A DNA stretch of 64,000 nucleotides from NCBI RefSeq assembly GCF_001705435.1, contig NZ_MDEN01000047.1, positions 1 through 64,000 on the forward strand, written 5' to 3'. Shown one piece after another: positions 1,601 through 18,188 of this stretch. The notes under the pieces are model-generated. The model searched no databases. It saw only the letters and a program-made list of their open reading frames with translations, and was not told where the DNA came from. The stretch's first letter is position 1; each line of letters opens with the position of its first letter. The position numbers and the translations under genes are program-made. The DNA comes from Pseudomonas graminis. Its GTDB lineage: Bacteria; Pseudomonadota; Gammaproteobacteria; Pseudomonadales; Pseudomonadaceae.

Positions 1601-2527
1601 TTAATCGTCGAAACCGGCCTGCTCGGAGATCTCGTCCACCTTCAGCTCCAGTCGATAGGCCACGGCAATGAACAGTGCCTGACACAAACACAACGTAGCG
1701 CTGAGCGAACGAAACGCGAACGAGCTGCCTTCGTTGACCAGCAGCACGGCGTTGGCGCGCTTGGCCAGGGGCGACAGATTGCTGTCAGTAATGATCAAGG
1801 TCTTGGCCTGATGATGCTGGGCGATGCGCAGACAGTGCTGGGTTTCCTTGCCGTAGGGCGTGAAGCTGATGGCGATTACCAGGTCATTGGCGCGCACGCT
1901 GCGCATCTGCTCGCGGTAACTGCCGCCGAGGCCGGAAATCAGGTGGATGCGCTTATTGGTGTGCTGCAGGTTGTAGACCAGATAGTCGGCGACGGCGAAG
2001 GAGCGTCGTACCCCGACCACGTAGATGTTGTCGGCGTTGACCACCAGGTCCACGGCTTTCTCGAACGCTTCGTCGTCCAGTTCCAGCGCCAGCCGTTCCA
2101 GCCCCGACAGTGTGGCGTTCACGCATTCGCGGGCCAGGTCGCCGGCGCTGGCCTTCTGGGATTTGTTGGCGATCATGCTGCGAATGCGTTGCTGGTAGTT
2201 CTGCACCGGGGTGGTTTTGTGGGTGTAGGCCTCGCGAAACAGCGCCTGCATTTCGCTGAATCCGCTGAAGCCGAAGCGCTGGGAGAACCGCACAATGGCC
2301 GAAGGATGCACCTCGCATTCCCGGGCGATGTCGCTGATGCGGTCGACCATGATCCGGTCGCTCTGCTGGCTCATGTAGCTGGCGATGCGTTTGAGCTGGC
2401 GCGGCAGGCTCTCGTATTCGGCCGTGATCAGCTTGAGCAGGGCATCGGCGGTCTCCGGCGCGGCGGTGACGGGCGTTTCGCCGTCGGCTCCGGTATCGGG
2501 CGCGCCTGGCTGATCGAGGCTGGACAT
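1601..2527 (-). CDS. iolR: RpiR-family transcriptional regulator of inositol catabolism
   Basis: The 308-residue protein has an N-terminal RpiR-type helix-turn-helix domain (about residues 30-105, with ISDIARECEVHPSAIVRFSQ) and a C-terminal SIS phosphosugar-binding domain (about 145-285). RpiR proteins usually repress sugar operons until a phosphosugar binds the SIS domain. It is divergent from the iol operon and has a palindrome in the shared gap, so the target is inferred to be inositol catabolism with autoregulation. I chose the ATG at 2527 because AAAGGA lies nine bases upstream; the frame is open to 2614 without a better site. Related regulators are called IolR in rhizobia and Pseudomonas. 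Confidence 0.85.
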   Translation of the reverse strand: MSSLDQPGAPDTGADGETPVTAAPETADALLKLITAEYESLPRQLKRIASYMSQQSDRIMVDRISDIARECEVHPSAIVRFSQRFGFSGFSEMQALFREAYTHKTTPVQNYQQRIRSMIANKSQKASAGDLARECVNATLSGLERLALELDDEAFEKAVDLVVNADNIYVVGVRRSFAVADYLVYNLQHTNKRIHLISGLGGSYREQMRSVRANDLVIAISFTPYGKETQHCLRIAQHHQAKTLIITDSNLSPLAKRANAVLLVNEGSSFAFRSLSATLCLCQALFIAVAYRLELKVDEISEQAGFDD

Positions 2528-2615
2528 ACGTGCAAATCCTTTGGCGGGTGGTGGCTTGGCGGATTGTCCGGGAAGACAGGCGGCCAGTTTTGCAGGCTGT
2601 GACCCGCAATGCAAA

Positions 2616-2633
2616 GTGGAATAAATATTCCAC
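2616..2633. promoter_or_regulatory. Putative IolR operator, GGAA-N6-TTCC palindrome
   Basis: The site reads GTGGAAT-AAAT-ATTCCAC, a perfect 7-bp inverted repeat with a 4-bp spacer. Its core is GGAA-N6-TTCC (2618-2631). The same core has been reported for IolR of Sinorhizobium meliloti. It overlaps the predicted transcription start of iolR and lies about 25 bp upstream of the predicted iolC -35 box. Binding is inferred. Confidence 0.6.
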
Positions 2634-2636
2634 CTG

Positions 2637-2665
2637 AAAATAATTTAGAAAAATTCATTGATCAA
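2637..2665 (-). promoter_or_regulatory. Predicted iolR promoter
   Basis: On the minus strand TTGATC (2665-2660) is followed after exactly 17 bp by TATTTT (2642-2637). Each box matches four of six consensus bases for the housekeeping sigma factor. The expected start near 2630 falls inside the operator palindrome. Confidence 0.4.
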
Positions 2666-2686
2666 GGCCCGGCGCCGTTCTAGTCT
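2658..2686 (+). promoter_or_regulatory. Predicted iolC operon promoter
   Basis: TTGATC (2658-2663) is followed after 17 bp by TAGTCT (2681-2686). The -35 box overlaps the opposite-strand -35 box of iolR through the palindrome TTGATCAA (2658-2665). The -10 match is weak (three of six), so this is tentative. Confidence 0.3.
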
Positions 2687-2749
2687 GCATCCACGAACTC
2701 GCTTGCAAGCATCGGTTTCGCAGGCAAGGGCATCAGCACTCATATCCAT

Positions 2750-2757
2750 AACAATAA
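2750..2757 (+). promoter_or_regulatory. AAnAAnAA (Crc/Hfq-type) motif before iolC
   Basis: AACAATAA lies 16 bases upstream of the iolC start codon and runs into the purine-rich ribosome site AAGAAGAGGGG. AAnAAnAA is the catabolite-activity motif bound by Hfq with Crc in pseudomonads. A role here is inferred. Confidence 0.45.
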
Positions 2758-2773
2758 AAGAAGAGGGGCCGGC

Positions 2774-4711
2774 ATGGGCCAGACTCGTTTTGCCACTGGG
2801 CGTCAGCTGGACGTGATTTGTCTCGGGCGCCTGGGTGTCGATCTCTACGCGCAGCAGATCGGCGCGCGCCTGGAGGACGTCAGCAGTTTCGCCAAATACC
2901 TCGGCGGCTCCTCCGCCAACATCGCGTTTGGCACCGCACGGTTGGGTGTGAAATCCGCCATGCTGACCCGCGTTGGCGACGACCACATGGGCCGTTTTCT
3001 GGTGGAGTCCCTGGCGCGGGAAGGCTGCGACGTCAGCGGCGTCAAGGTCGACGCCGAACGCCTGACCGCCATGGTCCTGCTCGGCATCAAGGACCGCGAA
3101 ACCTTTCCGCTGGTGTTCTACCGCGAGAACTGCGCCGACATGGCGCTGCAACCGGAAGACATCGACGAAGCGCAGATCGCCTCCAGCAAGGCGCTGTTGA
3201 TCACCGGCACGCATTTCTCCACCGATCAGGTGTTCCGCGCCAGCAGTCAGGCGCTGGACTACGCCGAAAAACACCACGTCAAACGCGTCCTCGACATCGA
3301 TTACCGCCCGGTGCTCTGGGGCCTGGCCGGCAAGGCTGACGGCGAGACGCGCTTTGTCGCCAACGACACCGTCAGCCAGCACGTGCAGCGCATCCTGCCG
3401 CGCTTCGACCTGATCGTCGGCACCGAAGAAGAATTCCTCATCGCCGGTGGCACGACCGATTTGCTCAGCGCCCTGCGTCGGGTCCGCGAACTCAGTGCCG
3501 CGACCCTGGTGGTGAAGCTTGGGCCCCAAGGCTGCACGGTGATTCACGGTGCGATTCCGGCAAAGCTGGAAGACGGCGCGATCTACCCCGGCGTGCGCGT
3601 CGAAGTGCTGAATGTGCTGGGCGCGGGCGATGCGTTTATGTCCGGCTTTCTCAAGGGTTGGCTCAACGACGAGAGCGATGAGCGCTGCTGCCAGTTGGCG
3701 AATGCCTGCGGCGGTCTGGTGGTGTCGCGGCATGCGTGCGCGCCGGCCATGCCGACGCTGGTCGAACTGGAATACCTGTTCAACAGCCCGGTGCCGATTA
3801 CCCGACCCGATCAGGACGCGGTGCTGCAGCGCCTGCACCGGGTCAGCGTGCCCCGTCGCGAATGGCAGCCGTTGTTCATCTTCGCCTTCGATCACCGCGG
3901 GCAACTGGTGGAGCTGGCGCAAAAGGCCGGGCGCGATCCGGCCTGTATCGGCCAGCTCAAGCAGTTGTTCGTGCAAGCGGTCGCGCGGGTCGAAGCCGAG
4001 TTGCACACGCGCGGCATCGCTGCCGATGTCGGCGTGCTGGCGGATCAGCGCTTCGGTCAGGATTCACTGAATGCCGCCAGCGGGCGCGGCTGGTGGGTGG
4101 CTCGCCCGGTGGAAGTCCAGGGTTCACGCCCGTTGGCGTTCGAGCACGGGCGTTCGGTGGGCAGCACGCTGCAAAGCTGGCCTCAGGAACAGATCATCAA
4201 GTGCCTGGTGCAATACCACCCGGACGACGAGCCGATGCTGCGCCTGGAACAGGAAGCGCAACTGCTGGGGCTGTATCAGGCGGCACTGGCCAGTGGTCAC
4301 GAACTGCTGCTGGAGGTTATTCCGCCCAAGGATCATCCTTCGACCCATCCAGACGTTATCTACCGTTCCCTCAAGCGCCTCTACAACCTCGGCATTTACC
4401 CGGCCTGGTGGAAAATCGAGTCGCAGCCCGCCGAGGTCTGGGAGCAGCTCGACGCGCTGATTCACGAGCGCGATCCGTACTGCCGGGGCGTGGTGTTGCT
4501 GGGGCTGAACGCGCCCGCCGAAACCCTGGCGGCCGGTTTTCGTCAGGCGGCGAAAAGCACCACCTGCCGGGGTTTTGCCGTCGGCCGGACGATTTTTCAC
4601 GAGCCCAGCCGAGCCTGGCTGGAAGGCGAAATCGATGACGCGGGCCTGATCACGCGGGTGCAGAGCAATTTCGGTTTCCTCATCGAATCCTGGCGCGACG
4701 CCCGGGCCTGA
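2774..4711 (+). CDS. iolC: Bifunctional 5-dehydro-2-deoxygluconokinase / DKGP aldolase (IolC-DUF2090 fusion)
   Basis: The 645-residue protein joins a PfkB-family sugar kinase (about residues 10-330) to a DUF2090 domain (about 340-640). The kinase half shows GGSSANIA near residue 44 and the catalytic GAGDAF near residue 283. The kinase phosphorylates 5-dehydro-2-deoxy-D-gluconate. The DUF2090 half resembles class I aldolases and is generally assigned the cleavage of DKG-phosphate to DHAP and malonate semialdehyde, the IolJ step. No separate iolJ is seen in the cluster, which fits a fused role. The ATG at 2774 has a strong AGAGGGG site. It is the first gene of the operon, 60 bp before iolE. Confidence 0.93.
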   Translation: MGQTRFATGRQLDVICLGRLGVDLYAQQIGARLEDVSSFAKYLGGSSANIAFGTARLGVKSAMLTRVGDDHMGRFLVESLAREGCDVSGVKVDAERLTAMVLLGIKDRETFPLVFYRENCADMALQPEDIDEAQIASSKALLITGTHFSTDQVFRASSQALDYAEKHHVKRVLDIDYRPVLWGLAGKADGETRFVANDTVSQHVQRILPRFDLIVGTEEEFLIAGGTTDLLSALRRVRELSAATLVVKLGPQGCTVIHGAIPAKLEDGAIYPGVRVEVLNVLGAGDAFMSGFLKGWLNDESDERCCQLANACGGLVVSRHACAPAMPTLVELEYLFNSPVPITRPDQDAVLQRLHRVSVPRREWQPLFIFAFDHRGQLVELAQKAGRDPACIGQLKQLFVQAVARVEAELHTRGIAADVGVLADQRFGQDSLNAASGRGWWVARPVEVQGSRPLAFEHGRSVGSTLQSWPQEQIIKCLVQYHPDDEPMLRLEQEAQLLGLYQAALASGHELLLEVIPPKDHPSTHPDVIYRSLKRLYNLGIYPAWWKIESQPAEVWEQLDALIHERDPYCRGVVLLGLNAPAETLAAGFRQAAKSTTCRGFAVGRTIFHEPSRAWLEGEIDDAGLITRVQSNFGFLIESWRDARA

Positions 4712-4750
4712 CGTCAGAACCCGCGGCCTCTGTTTTCAGTTGAACGAGAT

Positions 4751-4761
4751 AACAACAATAA
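4751..4761 (+). promoter_or_regulatory. AAnAAnAA motif before iolE
   Basis: AACAACAATAA, a run of overlapping AAnAAnAA motifs, directly precedes the ribosome site AAGG of iolE (start 4772). It nearly matches the leader of iolD. Inferred Crc/Hfq target. Confidence 0.55.
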
Positions 4762-4771
4762 AGGTGCAGCC

Positions 4772-5725
4772 ATGCCCGCTTCTGCAATCCGAATTGGCAT
4801 CAACCCGATTTCCTGGAGCAACGACGACCTCCCGGCCCTCGGCGGCGAAACGCCCCTGAGCACCGCGCTGAGTGAGGGCAAGGAAATCGGCTACGAAGGC
4901 TTCGAGCTCAACGGCAAATTCCCCAAGGATGCCCAAGGCGTGGCCGATGTGTTGCGCCCCTATGACCTGGCGCTGGTGTCGGGCTGGTATTCCGGTCGGC
5001 TCGCCAGCCGCTCGGCGGCCGAGGAAATCGACGCCATCGCCAGCCACGTCGAGCTGCTCAAGCACAATGGCGCCACGGTGCTGGTTTACGGCGAAGTGGC
5101 CGATTCGATTCAGGGTCAGCGCATTCGATTGGTCGAGCGACCGCGTTTCCACAGCGCCAGCGCCTGGCAGGCCTACGCCGACAAGCTCACCGAGCTGGCC
5201 CGGTTTACCCTGTCCCAGGGCGTGCGCCTGGCCTACCACCACCACATGGGCGCGTACGTGGAATCGCCGAAGGACATCGACACGCTGATGGCGCTGACGG
5301 GCGATGAAGTCGGCCTGCTGTTCGATTCCGGTCACTGCTACATGGGCGGCGGCGAACCGCTTCAAGTGCTGAGCAAACACATCGACCGCGTCTGTCACGT
5401 TCACTTCAAGGACGTGCGCAAGCCAGTGGTGCAACTGGCGCGCAACCATTTGTGGAGCTTTCCGGACTGCATCGTCAACGGCACCTTCACCGTGCCCGGC
5501 GATGGCGACATCGATTTCGCCGCGCTGCTGGATGTGTTGATGCAGGCCGGTTACCAAGGCTGGCTGGTGGTCGAAGCGGAACAGGACCCGGCCGTCGCGC
5601 CGAGCTATGCCTATGCAAAGAAAGGCTACGAGACCCTGCGCGCGTTGCTGGCCGCCGCGCAGGTCAATCACTCCGCTCGACAACACCGCACGCCCCAACA
5701 ACCGCCTGAACACAGGAGTCTGTGA
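4772..5725 (+). CDS. iolE: myo-Inosose-2 dehydratase
   Basis: The 317-residue protein belongs to the xylose-isomerase-like TIM-barrel family. It dehydrates 2-keto-myo-inositol (scyllo-inosose) to 3D-trihydroxycyclohexane-1,2-dione, the second step of inositol breakdown. Visible family features are the start GINPISWSNDDLP, the metal-site strands YHHHMGAYVES and LLFDSGHCYMGGG, and the late VVEAEQDPA. Length is near the usual 300. The C-terminal extension of about 20 polar residues overlaps the leader of iolB. It sits between iolC and iolB in the same operon. Confidence 0.93.
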   Translation: MPASAIRIGINPISWSNDDLPALGGETPLSTALSEGKEIGYEGFELNGKFPKDAQGVADVLRPYDLALVSGWYSGRLASRSAAEEIDAIASHVELLKHNGATVLVYGEVADSIQGQRIRLVERPRFHSASAWQAYADKLTELARFTLSQGVRLAYHHHMGAYVESPKDIDTLMALTGDEVGLLFDSGHCYMGGGEPLQVLSKHIDRVCHVHFKDVRKPVVQLARNHLWSFPDCIVNGTFTVPGDGDIDFAALLDVLMQAGYQGWLVVEAEQDPAVAPSYAYAKKGYETLRALLAAAQVNHSARQHRTPQQPPEHRSL

Positions 5726-5727
5726 AC

Positions 5728-6537
5728 ATGAATCTCTTGGTCAAGAGCAAGGCCGAAGGGCGCGACGTGGTCGCGCTGGCCGACGGCGTGCTGACGTACG
5801 TCGGCTTCTCCGCCCATCGATTGAGCGTCGGCGAACGTCTGCCGGTGAGTGCGGGCGACAAGGAAATCTGCCTGGTGCTGCTCAGCGGTCGCATCAGCGT
5901 CAGCGGCGAGGCGCCGGGGCAGGGCGGTTTCAACTGGGAAAACCTAGGTGATCGGCAGTCCGTGTTCGAGGACAAATCTCCCTTTGCGGTGTATCTGCCG
6001 CCGGGCAGCCAGGCCGAAGTCACGGCGTTGAGCGCGGTGCAGATTGCCGTGTGCGCGGCGCCCGGCGATGCGTCCAAAGACCTGCCGGCGCGAGTCATCA
6101 CCCCCGACACGATGAAACGCAGCGTGCGCGGCCGGGCGGCCAACACCCGTTACGTCTGCGACATTCTCCCTGATTCCGAGCCCGCGCATTCGTTGCTGGT
6201 GGTGGAGGTGCGCACGCCCTCGGGCCACTCATCCAGCTACCCGCCGCACAAGCACGACACAGATGATTTACCGCACCAGAGCTTTCTCGAAGAAACCTAT
6301 TACCATCAGGTCAACCCGCCCCAGGGCTATGTGTTCCAGCGCGTGTACACCGACGATCGCAGCATCGATCAGGCCATGGCCGTGGAGAACAACGACCTGG
6401 TCACGGTGCCCAAGGGGTATCACCCGGTCACCGTGCCGTACGGCTACGAATCCTATTACCTGAACGTGATGGCCGGCCCCAAACGCGCCTGGCAATTTCA
6501 TAACGATCCGCAGCATAGCTGGCTGCTCGATTTGTAA
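5728..6537 (+). CDS. iolB: 5-deoxy-glucuronate isomerase
   Basis: The 269-residue KduI/IolB-type bicupin protein isomerises 5-deoxy-D-glucuronate to 5-dehydro-2-deoxy-D-gluconate, the substrate of IolC. The second cupin carries the metal-binding YPPHKHD and the following [16 protein letters not shown] chose ATG 5728 rather than the in-frame GTG at 5722, because GGAG at 5715-5718 is nine bases from the ATG and only three from the GTG. The iolE stop codon lies two bases upstream, consistent with coupled translation. Confidence 0.92.
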
Positions 6538-6559
6538 ATCTATTGGAAGGAGCCCCTCA

Positions 6560-8059
6560 ATGAGCACTGCCCCGATCATTGGCCACTACATCAACGGCCA
6601 GATTCACGACAGCGCCGAGCGTTTCAGCGATGTGTTCAATCCGGCCACCGGCGCCGTGCAGGCCCGGGTCGCGCTGGCGGAACTGAAGACCGTCGATGAA
6701 GCCGTTGCCGCTGCCCAGGCGGCGTTTCCCGCCTGGGCAGACCAGTCGTCCCTGCGCCGTGCGCGGGTCATGTTCAAGTTCAAGGAGCTGCTGGACCAGC
6801 ACCATGACGAGCTGGCGGCCATCATCTGCCGCGAGCACGGCAAGGTGTTTTCCGATGCCAAGGGCGAAGTGGTCCGTGGCATCGAAATCGTCGAGTTCGC
6901 CTGTGGCGCGCCGAGCCTGTTGAAAAGCGACTACAGCGACAACATCGGTGGCGGCATCGACAACTGGAACCTGCGTCAGCCACTGGGCGTCTGCGCCGGC
7001 GTCACGCCGTTCAATTTCCCGGTGATGGTGCCGCTGTGGATGATCCCCATGGCGCTGGTCACCGGCAACTGCTTCATCCTCAAGCCGTCCGAACGCGACC
7101 CGTCTGCAAGTCTGCTGATGGCGCAACTGTTGAAACAGGCGGGCCTGCCGGATGGCGTGTTCAACGTGGTGCAGGGCGACAAAGTGGCCGTGGACGCGCT
7201 GTTGCAGCACAAGGGCATCGAGGCGATTTCCTTTGTCGGCTCCACGCCCATCGCCGAATACATTCATCAGCAGGGCACGGCCCACGGCAAGCGCGTGCAG
7301 GCCCTCGGCGGTGCGAAAAACCACATGATCGTCATGCCCGATGCCGACCTGGATCAGGCGGCCGACGCATTGATCGGCGCGGCCTACGGTTCGGCGGGCG
7401 AGCGCTGCATGGCGATTTCCATCGCCGTGGTGGTGGGTGACGTGGGGCAGAAACTCATCGACAAGCTGCTGCCGCGCATCGATGCCCTCAAGGTCGGCAA
7501 CGGCATGAACGCCGACTCGGACATGGGCCCGCTGGTCACGGCGGTGCACAAGGCCAAGGTCGAAGGCTACATCGCCCAGGGCGTGCAAGAGGGCGCGAAG
7601 CTGATTGTCGACGGGCGCAACTTCACCGTGCCGGGGGCGGAACAGGGCTTCTTCGTCGGTGCCACGCTGTTCGATGAGGTGACGCCGGAGATGACTATCT
7701 ATAAGGAGGAAATATTCGGACCGGTGCTGGGCATCGTCCACGTGCCCGATTTTGCCTCGGCGGTGGAGCTGATCAACGCCCACGAATTCGGCAACGGCGT
7801 GTCGTGCTTCACCAGCGACGGCGGCATTGCCCGGGCCTTTGCGCGCAACATCAAGGTCGGCATGGTGGGCATCAACGTGCCGATTCCGGTGCCGATGGCC
7901 TGGCATTCGTTCGGCGGCTGGAAGCGCTCGCTGTTCGGCGATCACCATGCCTACGGCGAAGAAGGCCTGCGGTTCTACAGCCGCTACAAGAGCGTCATGC
8001 AGCGCTGGCCGGACAGCATCGCCAAGGGCGCGGAATTCAGCATGCCGACGGCGAAGTAG
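6560..8059 (+). CDS. mmsA: CoA-acylating methylmalonate/malonate-semialdehyde dehydrogenase
   Basis: The 499-residue aldehyde dehydrogenase superfamily enzyme has the thiol nucleophile at Cys283 in [11 protein letters not shown], the MmsA/IolA signature. In this pathway it converts malonate semialdehyde from DKGP cleavage to acetyl-CoA with NAD and CoA. GAAGGAG gives a strong ribosome site 22 bp after iolB. The family can also serve valine breakdown; position in the iol operon argues for the inositol role, for which the name iolA is also used. Confidence 0.92.
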
Positions 8060-8094
8060 GGGAACAACGTTAATCGTTTGCTGAACGCGGTCGA

Positions 8095-8186
8095 TGTGGG
8101 AGCGAGCTTGCTCGCGAAGGCGGCTGTATGGCCACTGGGGATGTGCCAGACGGACCGGCCCCTTCGTGAGCAAGCTCACTCCCACA
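8095..8186. repeat. REP pair between mmsA and iolD
   Basis: A Pseudomonas-type REP beginning TGTGGGAGCGAGCTTGCTCG and an inverted partner ending GAGCAAGCTCACTCCCACA enclose about 35 bp. The hairpin could slow transcription or protect upstream mRNA within the iol operon. Confidence 0.85.
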
Positions 8187-8262
8187 GGGATCATCGCTGA
8201 GTCTGAATATTCAGCCCAGTCAGCCAAGTCCGCTAACCATTCCCAGGGCTTTCATCACCGCC

Positions 8263-8273
8263 AATAACAACAA
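8263..8273 (+). promoter_or_regulatory. AAnAAnAA motif before iolD
   Basis: AATAACAACAA runs straight into the AAGG ribosome site of iolD (start 8283), the same arrangement as before iolE. Inferred Crc/Hfq target. Confidence 0.55.
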
Positions 8274-8282
8274 GGTGCAAGC

Positions 8283-10214
8283 ATGACCACGACTCGATTG
8301 ACCATGGCCCAGGCCCTGGTGAAGTTTCTCGATAACCAGTACGTCGAAGTCGACGGCGTGCAGAGCAAGTTCGTCGCCGGGGTGTTCACCATTTTCGGTC
8401 ACGGCAACGTGCTCGGCCTGGGCCAGGCGCTGGAGCAGGACAGCGGCGAGCTCATCGTCCATCAAGGCCGCAACGAACAAGGCATGTGCCACGCCGCCAT
8501 GGGTTTTGCCAAGCAACACCTGCGGCGCAAGGTCTACGCCTGTAGCTCGTCGGTCGGCCCCGGCGCCGCCAACATGATCACTGCCGCGGCCACCGCGTCG
8601 GCCAATCGCATTCCGCTGTTGTTGCTGCCCGGCGATGTCTACGCCAGTCGCCAGCCCGATCCGGTGCTGCAACAGATCGAACAGTTCCACGACCTCAGCA
8701 TCAGCACCAACGACGCCTTCAAGGCCGTGAGCAAATACTGGGACCGCATCAACCGCCCCGAGCAGCTGATGAGCGCGGCCCTCAACGCCATGCGCGTGCT
8801 CACGGACCCTGCCGAAACCGGCGCCGTCACCCTGGCACTGCCCCAGGATGTTCAGGCCGAAGCCTACGACTACCCCGATTCATTCCTGCAAAAGCGCGTG
8901 CATCGCATCGACCGTCGTCCGCCCACCGAAGCGATGCTCAACGATGCCGTGACGCTGCTCAAAGGCAAACGCAAGCCGCTACTGATCTGTGGCGGCGGCG
9001 TGCGTTATTCCGGTGCGGCCGCCGAGTTGCAGGCGTTCGCCGAGCGCTTCGGCATCCCATTCAGCGAAACCCAGGCAGGCAAGAGCGCCATCGTCTCCGC
9101 TCATCCACTGAACATGGGCGGCATCGGCGAGACCGGCACCCTGGCGGCGAATACCCTGGCCCGGGAGGCGGACCTGATCATCGGCGTCGGCACCCGTTAC
9201 AGCGATTTCACCACCGGCTCCAAATCCCTGTTCCAGAACCCTGACGTGCAATTCCTCAACCTCAACGTTGGCGCATTCGATGTGCAGAAACTGGATGGCG
9301 TGCAGGTGTTGGCCGATGCGCGCCTCGCGCTTCTCTCCCTGTCGGATCAGTTGGGGGACTACCGCGCGCAGTGGGGCACTCAGCCGCGCGAGGCGAGGGC
9401 TGCTCTGGATGCGGAAGTGGATCGGCTGTACGCCGTGGAATACCAGGCCGAGGCTTTCGAGCCGGAAGTCAGCGGTCATCTCGACCCGCAGGTGCTGCGC
9501 GATTTCATCGAAATGACCGGTTCGTGCCTGACCCAGAGCCGGGTATTGGGGGTGCTCAACCAGCAATTACCCTCGGACGCGGTCATCGTCGCGGCGGCCG
9601 GCAGTCTGCCCGGCGATTTGCAGCGGGCGTGGCGCAGCACCAGCGTCGACAGTTACCACGTCGAGTACGGCTATTCCTGCATGGGCTATGAGGTCAACGC
9701 CGCGTTGGGCGTGAAGATGGCGGCGCCGGAGCGTGAGGTGTACGCGCTGGTGGGTGACGGTTCCTACATGATGCTGCACTCGGAACTGGCCACGTCGATT
9801 CAGGAACGGCGCAAGATCAACGTGGTGCTCCTCGACAACATGGCCTTCGGTTGCATCAACAATTTGCAGATGGGCAACGGCATGGGCAGTTTCGGCACCG
9901 AGCTCCGCTATCGCAATCCCAAGACCGGTCAGCTGGATGGCGACTTAGTGCCGGTGGATTTCGCCATGAGTGCCGCGGCCTATGGCTGCAAGACCTACAA
10001 GGTCAGCAACGCCCGGGAGCTGGAGGCGGCACTGGCCGATGCCCGCACGCAGACCGTTTCGACGCTGATCGACATCAAGGTGCTGCCGAAAACCATGATC
10101 CACGGCTACCTGTCGTGGTGGCGCGTGGGCGTGGCGCAGGTGTCGACCACTGGAACAACGGCCGAGGCGTACGAGCGGCAAAAAGCGGCGTTGGCCAAGG
10201 CCCGCCAGTATTGA
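8283..10214 (+). CDS. iolD: 3D-(3,5/4)-trihydroxycyclohexane-1,2-dione acylhydrolase
   Basis: The 643-residue thiamine-diphosphate enzyme opens the ring of trihydroxycyclohexanedione to give 5-deoxy-glucuronate. The N-terminal pyrimidine domain contains the conserved Glu in [14 protein letters not shown] central domain follows, and the C-terminal pyrophosphate domain has [11 protein letters not shown] followed by the LLDNMAF stretch that completes the ThDP/Mg motif. Length matches IolD (about 640) rather than acetolactate synthase (about 570). It follows a REP pair 220 bp after mmsA and has its own A-rich leader. Confidence 0.93.
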
Positions 10215-10221
10215 ACACAGG

Positions 10222-10363
10222 CCCTGTAGGAGCGTGGCTTGTCCCGCGATCTGCCGGGAACCGGCAGCACATTCAGGCAACGCGATGTGTCTGATACACC
10301 GCATTGGCTGGATTGACGACGACTGCGTCGCCGATCGCGGGACAAAGCCACGCTCCTACAGGG
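10222..10363. repeat. Inverted REP pair between iolD and the dehydrogenase gene
   Basis: CCCTGTAGGAGCGTGGCTTG at 10222 is matched in inverse by a copy ending at 10363, with about 80 bp between the arms. This is a REP doublet of a different sequence type from the one at 8095. Confidence 0.85.
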
Positions 10364-10377
10364 CAAGGAGATTACTT

Positions 10378-11397
10378 ATGAAAATCGGACTCATCGGCTA
10401 CGGCAAGGGCGGGCGTTACTTTCACGCGCCGCTGATTGCCAGCCAGCCCGGCATGACGTTTGCCGGCGTGGTCACCCGTTCGCCGGAACGCCGCCAGGAC
10501 CTGCGCAACGATTACCCCAAGGTCCCGGCCTTCGACAGCCTGGCCGATCTGGTCGCGGCCGGTGTCGATGCGGTGGTGATCTCGACGCCGCTGGCCTCCC
10601 GCCGTGCCTTGATTCTCGAAGCCATCGAACTCGGCGTCCCGGTCGTCAGCGACAAACCGTTCGCGCCGGATGCCCAGGCGGCCCAGGAACTGGTAGACGC
10701 CGCCGAACGCCGAGGCGTGCTGCTGGGCGTGTACCAGAACCGTCGCTGGGACTCGGATTTTCTCACCGTGCGCAAGCTGATCGATCAGGGCGTTCTCGGC
10801 GACATCAGCCGCTTCGAGTCCCGGGTCGAGCGCTATTCGCCGTCCTCGGTTGGCAAGGAAAGCGGCGGCGGCATTCTCCGCGATCTCGGCAGCCATCTGG
10901 TGGATCAGGCACTGCTGCTGTTCGGGCCGGTGAAGCGGGTGTACGCCGAGCTTGAGTTCGCGACGCCGGAGCAAAAGGTCGATCACGGCTTCTTTATTTC
11001 ACTGACCCATGCCAACGGCGTGGTTTCGCACCTCTGGGGCAACTGCCTGCAAAACGCCCAGGGCCCGCGTTTTCGAGTCAACGGTTCACAGGGCTGCTAT
11101 ACCGTGGAGGGCCTCGACGGTCAGGAAGCTGCCGCACTGGCCGGGTTGTCCCCCCGATCCGAAGGCGATCGCTGGGGCGTGGAAGAACACCGACGCTGGG
11201 GCTGGTTCGAGCAGGGCGAGCACCGCGAGCGGGTCCCGTCGGAGCGTGGCTGCTGGACCGAGTTTTACCGGCAGTGGCAGGAAGCGGTGATGAACCAGGG
11301 GCGTAATCCTGTGGATGCAAACGATGCGGTGGCCTCGGCCCGCGTGCTGGATGCCGCGAGGATCAGCGCGATGGAGGGCAGGGTGGTTGTGCTGTAG
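10378..11397 (+). CDS. Gfo/Idh/MocA-family oxidoreductase, probable inositol dehydrogenase (IolW/YdgJ-like)
   Basis: The 339-residue protein has an N-terminal Rossmann fold (GLIGYGKGGRYFHAP), the SDKPF motif near residue 97 and YQNRRWDSDF near residue 120. That last motif is typical of the IolW/YvaA/YdgJ branch, which includes NADP-linked scyllo-inositol dehydrogenases, rather than of classical IolG. Position suggests it supplies an inositol oxidation step. ATG 10378 has AAGGAG seven bases upstream; the frame is open to 10234 but that region is REP sequence. Whether it oxidises myo-inositol, or a true iolG lies elsewhere, cannot be told here. Confidence 0.8.
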   Translation: MKIGLIGYGKGGRYFHAPLIASQPGMTFAGVVTRSPERRQDLRNDYPKVPAFDSLADLVAAGVDAVVISTPLASRRALILEAIELGVPVVSDKPFAPDAQAAQELVDAAERRGVLLGVYQNRRWDSDFLTVRKLIDQGVLGDISRFESRVERYSPSSVGKESGGGILRDLGSHLVDQALLLFGPVKRVYAELEFATPEQKVDHGFFISLTHANGVVSHLWGNCLQNAQGPRFRVNGSQGCYTVEGLDGQEAAALAGLSPRSEGDRWGVEEHRRWGWFEQGEHRERVPSERGCWTEFYRQWQEAVMNQGRNPVDANDAVASARVLDAARISAMEGRVVVL

Positions 11398-11475
11398 GAC
11401 GTGCACCCGGATGTCCCGCGAGGGAGTGCGCTGCACCCACCGGATTGACCGGACGAGGCGCATCAAACCGAAAAT

Positions 11476-11488
11476 AGAAATTAATTCT
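11476..11488. promoter_or_regulatory. Weak palindrome upstream of the importer promoter
   Basis: AGAA-ATTAA-TTCT resembles the GGAA-N6-TTCC operator but has a five-base spacer and altered end bases. It lies one to two helical turns upstream of the better site and may be an auxiliary operator. Confidence 0.3.
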
Positions 11489-11496
11489 AAAAGCTG

Positions 11497-11525
11497 TTGA
11501 AGTAGAAATTATTTTCCAATAGAGT
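11497..11525 (+). promoter_or_regulatory. Predicted importer promoter with embedded IolR operator
   Basis: TTGAAG (11497-11502), a 17-bp spacer and TAGAGT (11520-11525) form a plausible housekeeping promoter, four of six matches in each box. The spacer contains AGAA-ATTATT-TTCC (11504-11517), one base from the palindrome in the iolR/iolC gap. Repressor bound there would block RNA polymerase. Both assignments are by inspection. Confidence 0.5.
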
Positions 11526-11904
11526 CATTTCCAGGTTGCCGACGATCGCCGTCAGCGCCTGGTGCCGGGTTTCCCGGCAGCAGGCCGAACGAGCGACACA
11601 AAAACAAGAAAGCCAATCGCAGACAGGTACCGCCAATGAATATCTTCAGATCAGCCGCCAAGGCTTGCCGTCCCTTCTTACTCGCGCTTCCTGCTATCCC
11701 CCGCGCTGTTTCCCACAGATTGATCAACGCCGCCCCCGCTGTCGAATCCGCCCTCGAAACCATCGCCCATGTGCTCTGCGTCCAACGCCGCGGCGTTGTG
11801 GTATGCGGCGCATCGGGTGGTTCGGTCGCGCACCTTTCAGACACAGCGCGCACTGCTCCGCGCTGAGTGTCAGTACCTCCAGCCGTCATCATCCCTGTCA
11901 TTAC

Positions 11905-11915
11905 AACAACAAGAA
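11905..11915 (+). promoter_or_regulatory. AAnAAnAA motif before the inositol-binding protein gene
   Basis: AACAACAAGAA lies 19 bases upstream of the start codon, just before GGAGAAAG. Inferred Crc/Hfq target. Confidence 0.5.
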
Positions 11916-11933
11916 TCTGGAGAAAGACCGTTC

Positions 11934-12860
11934 ATGAATACCCCGCTCCGTTTCACCTCACTCGCTCTAGCCCTCATGCTGAGCAGCGGCGCCACCCTGG
12001 CCGCCGACCTGAAGATCGGCGTGTCCATGTCGCAGTTCGATGACACGTATCTGACCTACATGCGCGAGGACATGGACAAAAAAGTCAAAGCCATGGGCGG
12101 CGTCGATTTGCAGTTTGTCGATGGCCGCAATGACGTGAACAAACAGCTCGATCAGGTGCAAGAGCTGATTGGCAAGAAGGTTGACGCACTGATCGTCAAC
12201 CCCGTCGACACCGAAGCCACCGTGAAGATCACCAAGGCTGCCACGGATGCCGGCATTCCGCTGGTCTACGTCAACCGCCGTCCGGACGATCCGAAGCTGC
12301 CCGCAGGCGTTGCCTCTGTGACCTCCGACGACAAGGAAGCCGGGCGCATGCAAATGGAATACCTGGCCAAGAAAATGGACGGCAAGGGCAACGTCGTCAT
12401 CTTGCTCGGTGAGCTGGCCAATAACTCGACCCGCGACCGCACGGCGGGCGTCAAGGAAGTCCTGAAAAACTACCCCGACATCAAGGTCACTCAGGAGCAG
12501 ACCGGCGCCTGGCAGCGGCAGAAAGGCATGGACGTCACCAATGACTGGCTGACCCAGGGCCGCGACTTCAAGGCGGTCATCTCCAACAACGACGAAATGG
12601 CCATCGGTGCGGCCATGGCCCTGAAGCAGGCGGGCAAAAAAGGTGAGGTATTTGTGGCCGGTGTCGACGGCACGCCGGACGGTCTGAGCGCGGTCAAGAA
12701 AGGCGACCTCTCGGTCTCGGTGTTTCAGGACGCCAAGGGGCAGGGCGAGGGCGCAATCGATGCCGCTGTGAAACTGGCGAAGAAGGAAACGCTGCCCGAA
12801 CAGGCCATCGTGATTCCTTTCAAGCTGATCACCCCGGAAAACGTCAACACCTTCAAATAA
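11934..12860 (+). CDS. Sugar (probable inositol) ABC transporter substrate-binding protein
   Basis: The 308-residue protein starts with a Sec signal peptide of about 24 residues (cleavage expected after ATLAA or nearby). The rest is a periplasmic-binding-protein type 1 fold of the RbsB/IbpA kind, with DALIVNPVDTEAT, NRRPDD and the hinge region VFVAGVDGTPDGLSAV. It would deliver inositol to the ATPase and permease encoded next. The ligand is inferred from the adjoining iol operon. I chose ATG 11934 for the signal peptide and the GGAGAAAG site; the frame is open upstream to 11769. Confidence 0.88.
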   Translation: MNTPLRFTSLALALMLSSGATLAADLKIGVSMSQFDDTYLTYMREDMDKKVKAMGGVDLQFVDGRNDVNKQLDQVQELIGKKVDALIVNPVDTEATVKITKAATDAGIPLVYVNRRPDDPKLPAGVASVTSDDKEAGRMQMEYLAKKMDGKGNVVILLGELANNSTRDRTAGVKEVLKNYPDIKVTQEQTGAWQRQKGMDVTNDWLTQGRDFKAVISNNDEMAIGAAMALKQAGKKGEVFVAGVDGTPDGLSAVKKGDLSVSVFQDAKGQGEGAIDAAVKLAKKETLPEQAIVIPFKLITPENVNTFK

Positions 12861-12945: not shown

Positions 12946-14508
12946 ATGTTCGCTTCCACAACCGCTTCGGCTTCAACCCTCTCGCCTGTCTCCGGGACGA
13001 CGAACGACGCCGAGCACCCTTATCTGCTGGAAATCACCAACATCAGCAAGGGCTTCCCCGGGGTGGTGGCGCTGGACAACGTGCAACTGCGCGTGCGGCC
13101 CGGCAGCGTGCTGGCGCTGATGGGCGAGAACGGCGCGGGCAAGTCCACGCTGATGAAAATCATTGCCGGCATCTACCAGCCCGACAGCGGCGAAATCCGC
13201 CTGCGTGGCGAGCCGGTGGTGTTCCAGTCGCCGCTGGCGGCGCTGCAATCGGGCATTGCCATGATCCATCAGGAGCTCAACCTGATGCCCCACATGAGCA
13301 TCGCCGAGAACATCTGGATCGGCCGCGAGCAGCTTAACGGCCTGCACATGGTCGACCACCGTGCGATGCACCGCTGCACGGCGGAATTGCTTGGACGCCT
13401 GCGCATCAACCTCGATCCAGAGGAGATGGTCGGCAACCTGAGCATCGCCGAGCGGCAGATGGTCGAGATCGCCAAGGCCGTTTCCTACGACTCCGACGTA
13501 CTGATCATGGACGAGCCGACCTCCGCCATTACGGAGACGGAGGTCGCCCACCTGTTTTCGATCATTGCCGACCTGCGGGCCCAGGGTAAGGGCATCATCT
13601 ACATCACCCACAAGATGAACGAAGTGTTCGCCATCGCCGATGAAGTGGCGGTGTTCCGGGACGGCGCCTATATCGGTCTGCAGCGGGCCGACAGCATGAA
13701 CGGCGACAGCCTGATTTCGATGATGGTTGGCCGTGAACTCACCCAGCTGTTTCCCGAGCGCGACCAGCCCGTGGGCAAGTTGCTGCTGTCGGTTCGCGAC
13801 CTGTCGCTCAACGGCGTGTTCGAAGGCGTGTCGTTCGACCTGCACGCCGGCGAAGTGTTGGGCATCGCCGGGCTGATGGGCTCGGGGCGCACCAATGTCG
13901 CTGAAACGATCTTCGGCATCACCCCCAGTACGCGCGGGGAAATCCTCCTCGACGGCACGCCGATCCGTGTCAGCGACCCGCACTTCGCCATCGAGAAGGG
14001 CTTCGCGTTGCTCACCGAGGATCGCAAGCTCAGCGGCCTGTTTCCGTGCCTGTCGGTGCTGGAAAACATGGAGATGGCGGTGCTTCCCCATTACGCTGGC
14101 AACGGTTTTGTCCACCAGAAAGCCCTGCGCGTGCTGTGCGAAGACATGTGCAAAAAGCTGCGGGTGAAGACGCCGTCCCTTGAGCAGTGCATCGACACGC
14201 TGTCCGGCGGCAATCAGCAGAAGGCGCTGCTGGCGCGCTGGCTGATGACCAACCCGCGGGTGCTGATCCTCGATGAGCCCACCCGTGGCATCGACGTCGG
14301 CGCCAAGGCCGAGATCTATCGGCTGATTTCCCTGCTCGCCAGCGAGGGCATGGCGGTGATCATGATTTCTTCCGAACTGCCGGAAGTGCTGGGGATGAGC
14401 GACCGGGTCATGGTCATGCACGAAGGCGAAATGATGGGCACCCTCGACCGCGCCGAGGCCACCCAGGAGCGGGTCATGCACCTGGCGTCCGGAAACCCGG
14501 TCCACTGA
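12946..14508 (+). CDS. Sugar (probable inositol) ABC transporter ATP-binding protein
   Basis: The 520-residue protein holds two nucleotide-binding domains in tandem, as in RbsA and MglA. The first has Walker [10 protein letters not shown] (about residue 60) and signature [14 protein letters not shown]. The second has a degenerate Walker [10 protein letters not shown], and signature [15 protein letters not shown], the usual asymmetry of this family. It would energise uptake on the cytoplasmic face of the permease. ATG 12946 has GAGGAG nine bases upstream. The N-terminal 25 residues are rich in Ser, Thr and Ala and precede the first domain. Confidence 0.9.
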
Positions 14509-14580
14509 ATCTCGGGCTATTGACGCTCCGATTCAAGCACTGCACCACGCCCCAGTCACACTGCCCCAGTCGGGTCGCAC

Positions 14581-14588
14581 AAGAACAA
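14581..14588 (+). promoter_or_regulatory. AAnAAnAA motif before the permease gene
   Basis: AAGAACAA immediately precedes the AGAGG ribosome site of the permease gene (start 14598). Inferred Crc/Hfq target, the fifth such motif in this locus. Confidence 0.45.
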
Positions 14589-14597
14589 GAGGCACAC

Positions 14598-15626
14598 ATG
14601 AAGATGAACGCGATGCTGGAAAACAAACCCGCACTGGCGCCCCGCAAGCACAAGCGCCGGCTGCCCACCGAATTGAGCATCTTTCTGGTGCTGATCGGCA
14701 TTGGTCTGATCTTCGAGTTGTTCGGGTGGATCGTCCGCGATCAGAGCTTTCTGATGAATTCCCAGCGGCTGGTGCTGATGATTCTGCAGGTGTCGATCAT
14801 CGGTCTGCTGGCCATCGGCGTGACCCAGGTCATCATCACCACCGGCATCGACTTGTCGTCAGGTTCGGTGCTGGCGCTGTCGGCGATGATTGCCGCCAGC
14901 CTGGCGCAATCGTCGGACTACACCCGCGCCGTGTTTCCGTCGCTGACCGATCTGCCGGTGTGGGCGCCCGTCATCGCCGGCCTTGGGGTGGGGCTGCTCG
15001 CCGGGGCGATCAACGGCAGCATCATCGCCATCACCGGCATCCCGCCGTTCATTGCCACGCTGGGCATGATGGTCTCGGCGCGGGGGCTGGCGCGCTATTA
15101 CACCGGCGGCCAGCCCGTGAGCATGCTGAATGATTCCTACACCGCGATCGGCCAGGGCGCCATGCCGGTGATCATCTTTCTGGTGGTCGCGGTGATCTTT
15201 CACATCGCCCTGCGCTACACCAAGTACGGGAAATACACCTACGCCATCGGCGGCAACATGCAGGCGGCGCGCACCTCGGGGATCAACGTCAAGCGGCATC
15301 TGGTGATCGTCTACAGCATCGCGGGTCTGCTGGCCGGGCTGGCCGGGGTGGTGGCGTCGGCACGGGCGGCCACCGGGCAGGCCGGCATGGGCGTTTCCTA
15401 CGAGCTGGACGCCATCGCGGCGGCGGTGATCGGCGGCACGAGCCTGGCCGGTGGCGTCGGGCGGATCACCGGCACGGTCATCGGCGCGCTGATCCTCGGG
15501 GTCATGGCCAGCGGCTTTACCTTCGTCGGCGTCGATGCCTACGTGCAGGACATCATCAAGGGCCTGATCATTGTCGTCGCCGTGGTCATCGATCAGTACC
15601 GCAACAAGCGCAAGCTCAAGCGCTGA
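14598..15626 (+). CDS. Sugar (probable inositol) ABC transporter permease
   Basis: The 342-residue RbsC-like membrane protein has a cationic N-terminus and about eight to ten hydrophobic segments. The family stretches TTGIDLSSGSVLALSAM and AAAVIGGTSLAGGVGRITG are both visible. It forms the translocation pore with the preceding ATPase. I chose ATG 14598, with AGAGG upstream; ATG 14604 is an alternative. It is the last gene before an intrinsic terminator, so binding protein, ATPase and permease form one transcript. Confidence 0.9.
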   Translation: MKMNAMLENKPALAPRKHKRRLPTELSIFLVLIGIGLIFELFGWIVRDQSFLMNSQRLVLMILQVSIIGLLAIGVTQVIITTGIDLSSGSVLALSAMIAASLAQSSDYTRAVFPSLTDLPVWAPVIAGLGVGLLAGAINGSIIAITGIPPFIATLGMMVSARGLARYYTGGQPVSMLNDSYTAIGQGAMPVIIFLVVAVIFHIALRYTKYGKYTYAIGGNMQAARTSGINVKRHLVIVYSIAGLLAGLAGVVASARAATGQAGMGVSYELDAIAAAVIGGTSLAGGVGRITGTVIGALILGVMASGFTFVGVDAYVQDIIKGLIIVVAVVIDQYRNKRKLKR

Positions 15627-16380: not shown

Positions 16381-16565
16381 TCCATCGGGTTCGACCGCCC
16401 GCAACGGGTGGTCGAGCCGTTCCCTTGCGCACCTTTCAAGCGCCTACCGTATAGCCCCCCCGTCGCAGCACATTCCGACCGACTACCACCAATGACTCAT
16501 GGCGCATGGCCGCTATTTGGGCGTTTAATGCTTTCACAATAATGAAAGCAGGGCAGGTCCCGGAC

Positions 16566-18188
16566 ATGGATGCGAAAGGTCGTCACGCAGCAACACCCTC
16601 CCACCCCGCGCACGCGGCCGTCGACAGTCAGGTTGTCACCGGTTCGCGCTGGCTGACGCCCGCCCTGCAAAGCCTTGGCTTGTGCCTGCTGTTTGCGGCG
16701 ATGGCGTGGGGTTATGTGTCCGTTTACGTGTGCCTGCCCGTCGCGCTGTTGATTCTGTGGTTGCCGCCGCTGTTCGCCGGCCGAACGCCGGTGGCGGCGG
16801 GAGAGGCGGGCGAAGACACCATGACCCGTCTGACCCGGGACCTGTCCCGAAGCACCAGTCACAACGCGTTGTCTGCTGCGGCCGTGGCGTTTTCGGTCAG
16901 GCAACTGGCGGGCAAGCTGCAGTCTCAGGTCAACGCGGCCGAGCAGATCGTCAGCAGCGCCGATGTGATGATCGCTACCGAGCGCGCCACGTCGACCCTC
17001 AGCCAGCAAGCGCTGACGGCCGCCAGCCAGGCGCGGGAGAGCAGCGGCGCCGGGCTCAACGTCCTCAACGCTTCCATCGGCCTCATGCACCAACTCAGTG
17101 AGCGGGCCGACAGCAGCCGTGAACTGATCGAAGCGCTCAGCCAGCGCAGCGAAGACATTCAGCGTGTGACGGCGGTGATTCAGTCCATCGCCAGCCAGAC
17201 CAATCTGCTCGCCCTCAACGCCGCCATCGAAGCCGCGCGGGCCGGCGAACACGGCCGTGGCTTTGCGGTGGTGGCCGATGAAGTGCGCGGGCTGGCCGGG
17301 CGCACGGCGACGGCGACCAGTGAAGTCGGGGAGATGGTCGTTGATATCCAGCAGCGCACCCGTCAGGTGGTCGAGCAGATCCGGCAGTTGTCGGGCGACC
17401 TGAGTGGCGGCGTGGCGCAGGTCGAATCCACCGGTCAGCAACTGGCGAGCATCGCTCAGCTGGCGGTTGGCGTAGAGCAGCAAGTGGGTGAGATCGCGCG
17501 GGGCGCCCAGACCAATCAGGCGCAATTGAGCAGCCTGTTCGTGGCCGTCGAGCAAATGCGCAGCGACCTTGCCGTCAGCGATGACCAGACCCGGCGCCTG
17601 GCGCAATCTGCGTTGCAGATGGAGGAGCAGGCGGAAACCATCAGCGAACGCCTGGCCCAGGTCGGTCTGGATGACTATCACCAGCGCATTTACGACCTCG
17701 CCCGCGAAGGCGCCAGTCAGATCGCCGCCACGTTCGAGGAGGACATCGATCAGGGCCGGGTCAGCCTGACCGATCTGTTCGACCGCACCTATCAGCCCAT
17801 CGCCAACACCTCGCCGGCCAAGTACCAGACGCGCTACGACCGCTACACCGACCAGACGCTGCCGGCCATTCAGGAACCTCTGCTGACCCGTCATGAGGGG
17901 CTGGTGTTCGCCATCGCCTGCACGCAGCAAGGCTACGTGCCGACCCACAATCAGGCGTTCAGCCGACCTTTGACGGGCGACACGGCAGTCGACGCGGTCA
18001 ACAACCGCACCAAGCGCAAGTTCGACGACCGCACCGGGATTCGCTGCGGCAGTCACCAGCAGCCGGTTCTGTTGCAGACCTACACCCGCGATACCGGCGA
18101 ACTGATGCACGATCTTTCCGTGCCTGTCATGGTCAAGGGCCGGCATTGGGGCGGGCTGCGACTGGGCTATAGGCCGGAGAAAAGCTGA
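16566..18188 (+). CDS. Methyl-accepting chemotaxis protein with C-terminal domain
   Basis: The 540-residue protein has two N-terminal hydrophobic segments (about residues 30-70, [13 protein letters not shown] and [15 protein letters not shown]) with almost no periplasmic loop between them. The MCP signalling region follows, with [20 protein letters not shown]. About 150 residues beyond it form a separate domain containing [20 protein letters not shown] and [14 protein letters not shown]. With no periplasmic domain, sensing is probably cytoplasmic and by the C-terminal part. ATG 16566 has GGCAGG eight bases upstream; ATG 16542 and 16506 are in frame but lack sites. Confidence 0.85.

Follow-up and report, generated by a model that had tools for sequence, protein, structure and literature searches.

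The inositol genes of Pseudomonas graminis appear to be controlled through paired operator sites rather than single ones. In the DNA analysed here (the window, 64,000 nt of contig NZ_MDEN01000047.1 in a genome of 5.96 Mb), the gene of the RpiR-family regulator IolR is divergent from iolC, and the inositol degradation genes are followed by those of a putative inositol importer. A strong box stands in the iolR/iolC gap and another upstream of the importer. Each is one half of a pair, with a weaker dyad exactly 15 bp away. Judged from sequence, it is likely that each of the two promoters has a two-part IolR operator and that IolR binds the pair. An earlier note on this DNA had proposed the two boxes as operators of IolR; the boxes are borne out, while the partner dyad of each had been overlooked.

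Both boxes lie where that note had placed them. The gap box (2618-2631, GGAATAAATATTCC) is an exact GGAA-N6-TTCC, and the importer box (11504-11517, AGAAATTATTTTCC) is one base off the palindrome, reading AGAA-N6-TTCC. The latter does sit between TTGAAG (11497-11502) and TAGAGT (11520-11525), which are 17 bp apart. GGAA-N6-TTCC by itself is not significant in the window, with 2 occurrences for an expectation of 0.85; allowing one mismatch gives 21 for an expectation of 20.3, which equals chance. Genome-wide it is found 91 times, versus 49 for a reversed control. Since the pattern is common in both window and genome, its significance was dropped as support. The form with an all-A/T spacer, RGAAWWWWWWTTCY, is found in the window at exactly the two boxes versus 0.01 expected, and none of 100 shuffles reaches two. 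In the whole genome this form occurs 7 times, versus 1 for the reversed-pattern control.

Conservation of the boxes was followed in the best 80 of 274 matches to named Pseudomonas and in 30 loci from other genomes of the genus, the window's own among them. With IolE as the measure, the closest named locus is 97% identical, which places the window near P. graminis. The loci yield 109 iolR/iolC gaps (two end before iolR, and the window's genome is entered twice, as W and L081) and 74 upstream regions of the importer. RGAA-N6-TTCY is present in all 109 gaps, as an exact GGAA-N6-TTCC in 100, and [AG]GAA[AT]6TTC[CT] is present in all 74 importer regions. The boxes are taken to be real because of this conservation, and the motif is found upstream of both iolC and the inositol importer. 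Its placement is equally constant at the importer, where TTGA begins 7 bp before the box and TAnnnT 16 bp after its first base in 74/74. Of the 109 gap loci, 102 have TTGA downstream of the box, and in 90 TAGTCT follows the hexamer that it opens at a distance of 17 or 18 bp. Eighteen further regions were taken from the more divergent end of the genus iolR matches; seven of them have iolC beside iolR, and these hold the gap box in 7/7 and the importer box in 6/7. A class-wide IolR search matched 2 of 185 genomes at E <= 1e-45, the window's own being one of them, too few for use, and a search of plasmids with the gap region gave no match.

The geometry of the pairs was counted in 108 gap loci and 74 importer loci, with non-redundant subsets of 45 and 40, respectively. 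In the gap, RGAA stands at +29 from the start of the strong box in 106/108 loci (43/45 non-redundant) and opens a weak dyad that reads RGAA-N6-TTGA in 87 of 108 and has an N7 spacer in 12, the window showing the N7 form. All 74 importer loci have TTCTA at -19, TTCY is kept there in all 40 non-redundant sequences, and RGAA-N5-TTCT begins at -28 in 66/74. Two adjacent dyads at a fixed 15-bp spacing lie over both inferred promoters, in different registers. The strong dyad of the importer is in the promoter spacer with the weak one just upstream; at iolC the weak dyad lies on the -35 and the strong one toward iolR.

Table 1. Coordinates of the boxes, promoters and genes in the window.
Feature	Position	Strand	Basis or remark
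iolR, RpiR/MurR-type regulator, HTH_6 + SIS, 308 aa	1601-2527	-	ATG at 2527, AAGGA upstream
Strong candidate IolR box of the iolR/iolC gap, GGAA-N6-TTCC	2618-2631	.	RGAA-N6-TTCY in 109/109 gaps
Weak partner dyad of the gap, AGAA-N7-TTGA	2647-2661	.	Putative iolC -35 begins with its right half
Putative iolC promoter, TTGATC-17-TAGTCT	2658-2686	+	Inferred from conservation
iolC, fused 5-dehydro-2-deoxygluconokinase/aldolase	2774-4711	+	NCBIfam NF047869, 1088 bits, cut-off 600
iolE, iolB, iolA, iolD, Gfo/Idh/MocA dehydrogenase	4772-11397	+	Pfam; order largely common to related loci
Weak partner dyad of the importer, AGAA-N5-TTCT	11476-11488	.	Upstream of the importer -35
Putative importer promoter, TTGAAG-17-TAGAGT	11497-11525	+	Inferred; TTGA and TAnnnT in 74/74
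Strong candidate IolR box of the importer, AGAA-N6-TTCC	11504-11517	.	Fills the promoter spacer; box in 74/74
Conserved small open reading frame, 76 aa, first gene of the importer operon	11636-11866	+	57/74 loci
Importer substrate-binding protein, IbpA-like	11931-12860	+	Pfam Peripla_BP_4
Importer ATPase and permease, IatA/IatP-like	12946-15626	+	Pfam ABC_tran, BPD_transp_2

The boxes are new instances of a published motif, the GGAA-N6-TTCC of the IolR regulon in Caulobacter crescentus and other alphaproteobacteria (Boutte et al. 2008, PMC2597717). Deletion of iolR in Caulobacter derepressed idhA, ibpA and iolC, mutation of motif 1 of iolC raised expression, and iolR itself gave no response to inositol (PMC2597717). 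The two systems share the palindrome, an RpiR-class regulator and iolC and the inositol importer as targets; because the motif is that of the Caulobacter regulon, direct repression is likely. They differ in that the Caulobacter case concerns alphaproteobacteria, with two copies at iolC 104 and 45 bp before the start codon rather than a 15-bp-gapped pair. Direct repression of the importer, as the earlier note had predicted, is well supported at the level of sequence by the known motif, its conservation, its co-occurrence with IolR and its placement in a promoter spacer.

Paired sites of unequal strength have a precedent in Salmonella Typhimurium, where each of three promoters analysed contains one site that IolR binds with high affinity and one of low affinity (PMC5349611). 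These A and B sites resemble the strong and weak dyads described here; the promoter of the main inositol transporter is included, and an oligomer was suggested, while the relevant passages of that paper give neither motif nor spacing. RpiR regulators form tetramers, and the proposal for MurR of Escherichia coli is that a tetramer spans two sites, separated by 17 bp, over the -35 and -10 (PMC12713135). MurR offers the same arrangement of an RpiR-family protein with two adjacent sites over a promoter. It differs in gap and span (17 and 47 bp there versus 15 and 42-44 bp here), in sequence and, by inference, in its sugar phosphate. Under nitrosative stress, Pseudomonas extremaustralis raised expression of iolR 2.62-fold, along with that of iolB, iolD, iolE, iolG2 and iatA, but iolA, iolC/J, ibpA and iatP showed no significant change (PMC11065229), a pattern that supports common control weakly at best. 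The literature searched, with RegPrecise outside that search, yielded no description of Pseudomonas inositol operators and no account of a 15-bp operator pair.

Genomes that hold only one of IolR and IolC serve as natural controls, and they bear on the highly improbable reading that a factor other than IolR binds the boxes, which would then stand beside the iol genes for some other reason. Nothing speaks for that factor directly, and it can draw on how common GGAA-N6-TTCC is in the genome, as counted above. Both motif and target genes match the Caulobacter IolR regulon, which argues against it, as do two kinds of genome. In 11 of the 18 divergent regions (L118-L126, L128 and L135, from genomes G036, G011, G055, G111, G097, G062, G019, G074, G033, G098 and G034), an IolR orthologue 76-83% identical is present with no iolC beside iolR, the iolR frame being truncated in G034. 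IolC was not found anywhere in these 11 orphan genomes at E <= 1e-40, in a search with no positive control of its own, though the query used finds IolC in 65 of 149 genomes of the genus. Where the iol cluster is missing in this way, the exact 16-mer TGGAA(A/T)6TTCCA is absent too: all 28 matches in the 11 genomes carry one mismatch, and the five orphan loci scanned contain no RGAA-N6-TTCY within about 15 kb. Genomes with IolC provide the second kind. An IolR orthologue accompanies IolC in 64 of 65; the exception is G129 (L226), whose IolC is 66-67% identical and whose best match to IolR is 25%, and its iol cluster has no exact GGAA-N6-TTCC. In a phylum sample, the exact box is found in 9 of 28 IolR-like loci (3.8-kb locus, 0.02-0.09 expected each), four of the nine being Pseudomonas.

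The 15-bp gap was also scanned for in more distant relatives, covering 12 box instances in 10 loci of non-Pseudomonas type that hold the box, with IolR about 34-76% identical. Gaps of 8-25 were allowed and the four best per box considered, without a shuffled control. A gap of 15 is best or equal-best in 6/12, one of them (L223) 155 bp upstream of an importer gene. Where the second dyad matches at >=7/8, the gap is 15 in 3/4, two of these three in one locus and again with no shuffled control.

Several observations weigh against paired operators bound by IolR. The Pseudomonas counts are not independent, because the loci are related, and six of the 12 distant boxes have no gap-15 partner among their best gaps. 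Among the 20 loci of the phylum sample with IolR <=43% identical, the exact box is present in 3 and a relaxed form in 4 more. One divergent region, L127, has no box in the 600 bp nearest its importer gene. A scan for the sigma-70 consensus found no promoter in the iolC or importer region, so the promoter assignments rest on conservation. One-mismatch sites number 1-5 in each orphan genome versus 0 for the reversed control; two of them recur across these genomes and lie inside open reading frames (ORFs) in the 5 loci examined. The cluster of G129 holds one relaxed match, AGAACCGCTATTCC. The Caulobacter data drawn on here give no direct binding of IolR, and mutation of the second iolC motif was without effect (PMC2597717).

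This last result, together with the irregular form of the partner dyads, which depart from N6 (N5 at the importer, N7 at the iolC promoter of the window), lends itself to a simpler arrangement in which only the strong dyads are operators, bound by one dimer each, and the weak dyads are the iolC -35 and an importer UP element. At iolC the TTGA of the weak dyad could plausibly serve as a -35 as well, and such a -35-like element accounts for part of the conservation of that dyad. The weak dyad of the importer is AT-rich and lacks its left half in 8 of 74 loci, and the AT-rich run before the importer -35 may act as an UP element. Yet the RGAA of the iolC weak dyad falls outside the -35 and still keeps its fixed offset (106/108), and a gap of 15 bp is seen again at the importer and in some of the distant loci. 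The single-dyad arrangement is considered unlikely on these grounds, and the two-part operator is preferred.

A mechanism for the two-part operator can be proposed in outline. IolR, as an RpiR-family protein with a SIS domain, would bind each pair as a dimer of dimers, that is a tetramer, and would block RNA polymerase at both the iolC and the importer promoter. The IolC product 2-deoxy-5-keto-gluconate 6-phosphate would then bind the SIS domain and release IolR. DKG-phosphate is given as the IolR inducer (PMC8877191, citing Kohler et al.). Inositol uptake and breakdown would be kept off in this way until inositol arrives. That one tetramer reads two unequal dyads at a fixed 15-bp gap, and does so in two registers (importer spacer and iolC -35), is a more tentative proposal, rated somewhat short of even. 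If true, the two-register reading implies that the promoters are released at different inducer levels. With its 15-bp gap and two registers, the geometry of the pairs offers an exact means of testing how DNA is read by a tetramer of the RpiR family. The use of inositol is thought to be helpful to plant-associated Pseudomonas.

The earlier note had further placed the first box over the iolR start and predicted autorepression of iolR. For the start codon the overlap does not hold, the ATG being 90 bp from the box. Overlap with the transcription start would require accepting a promoter that is poorly conserved: the proposed minus-strand TTGATC-17-TATTTT would fit the box at the iolR transcription start, and TTGATCAA, the source of its -35, is found in 6 of 108 loci. 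Autorepression thus has only partial support. It is plausible because it has been shown for Salmonella IolR (PMC5349611), but Caulobacter iolR, as noted above, gave no response to inositol; repression of iolR itself is possible. A stronger form of the idea has the gap box mainly repressing iolR from a divergent promoter spacer, with iolC controlled only via its weak dyad. It is favoured by TT.A and TA...T elements that flank the gap box on the minus strand with a 17-bp spacer in 42/108 loci. The window is not one of these, its hexamers TTCAGG and TTTGCA making a poor promoter, and the alternative promoter just described needs the rarely kept sequence; such a division of labour is on the doubtful side, though less so than the single-dyad arrangement.

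A third target is possible elsewhere in the genome. The exact TGGAA(A/T)6TTCCA has two occurrences in the window's genome, the gap box and a site (L117, G000:C62:68904-68919) upstream of a LacI-type regulator gene, between that gene and a divergent ORF. The site remains a candidate because it is one of only two, and in Ensifer aridi a LacI-type repressor gene is reported to be preceded by a putative IolR site (PMC8877191), the precedent by which L117 may be a third IolR target. It is not kept in L138, the sole relative found with that LacI-type gene (1 of 28 other genomes searched). Among the other five A/T-spacer sites of the genome, L113, L114 and L116 were set aside as lying inside mechanically listed ORFs, and L115 as part of a longer, different-looking palindrome.

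The gene of the regulator points away from iolC in the window, as it does in the related loci that hold both genes. The Pfam domains of the protein are those of the RpiR family (HTH_6 at 49.1 bits against a cut-off of 28.3, SIS at 78.8 bits against 25), and no NCBIfam equivalog reaches the cut-off. The importer substrate-binding protein has no NCBIfam equivalog above cut-off, so the substrate of the importer is taken from context. The five orphan loci listed have a chemotaxis-receptor-like gene nearby that resembles window positions 16506-18188, and these loci look as if the iol cluster were missing between iolR and that gene. Retention of iolR without the iol cluster in 11 genomes poses the question of what role an orphan IolR has. 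The cluster of G129 comprises a ROK-like gene (identified by eye), several Gfo/Idh/MocA-like genes and importer-like genes. In L133 (G051), iolE lies only about 560 bp past the iolC start and G051 is absent from the IolC matches, so its iolC looks truncated.

Between the importer promoter and the binding-protein gene lies a small ORF, 54-88 codons long across 57 of 74 loci, with the core LCV-x3-GV-x2-CG. At E <= 1 neither NCBIfam nor Pfam matches the copy in the window; single members of the alignment did hit Pfam weakly (1/11 at E 0.004 and 1/11 at 0.13), which was put down to chance. Its structure model is poor (mean predicted local distance difference test score, pLDDT, 57; predicted template modelling score, pTM, 0.27), and a search of 2400-12000 against Rfam at E <= 1 gave no RNA element. 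The other 17 loci have leaders of 53-120 nt without the ORF, and among four of these that were aligned, three show a tail resembling a deletion remnant. The small ORF is under purifying selection, with a ratio of nonsynonymous to synonymous polymorphism (pN/pS) of 0.21-0.42 in frame versus 0.89-2.4 in the other frames (three indel-free groups, 30 of the 57 loci). It occurs once per genome in 43 of 149 genus genomes (E <= 1e-4), all 43 of which have IolR and IolC. Strong conservation is also seen just past the importer -10, in the sequence TTTCCAG (window 11528-11534, plus strand; +24 to +30 from the box start).
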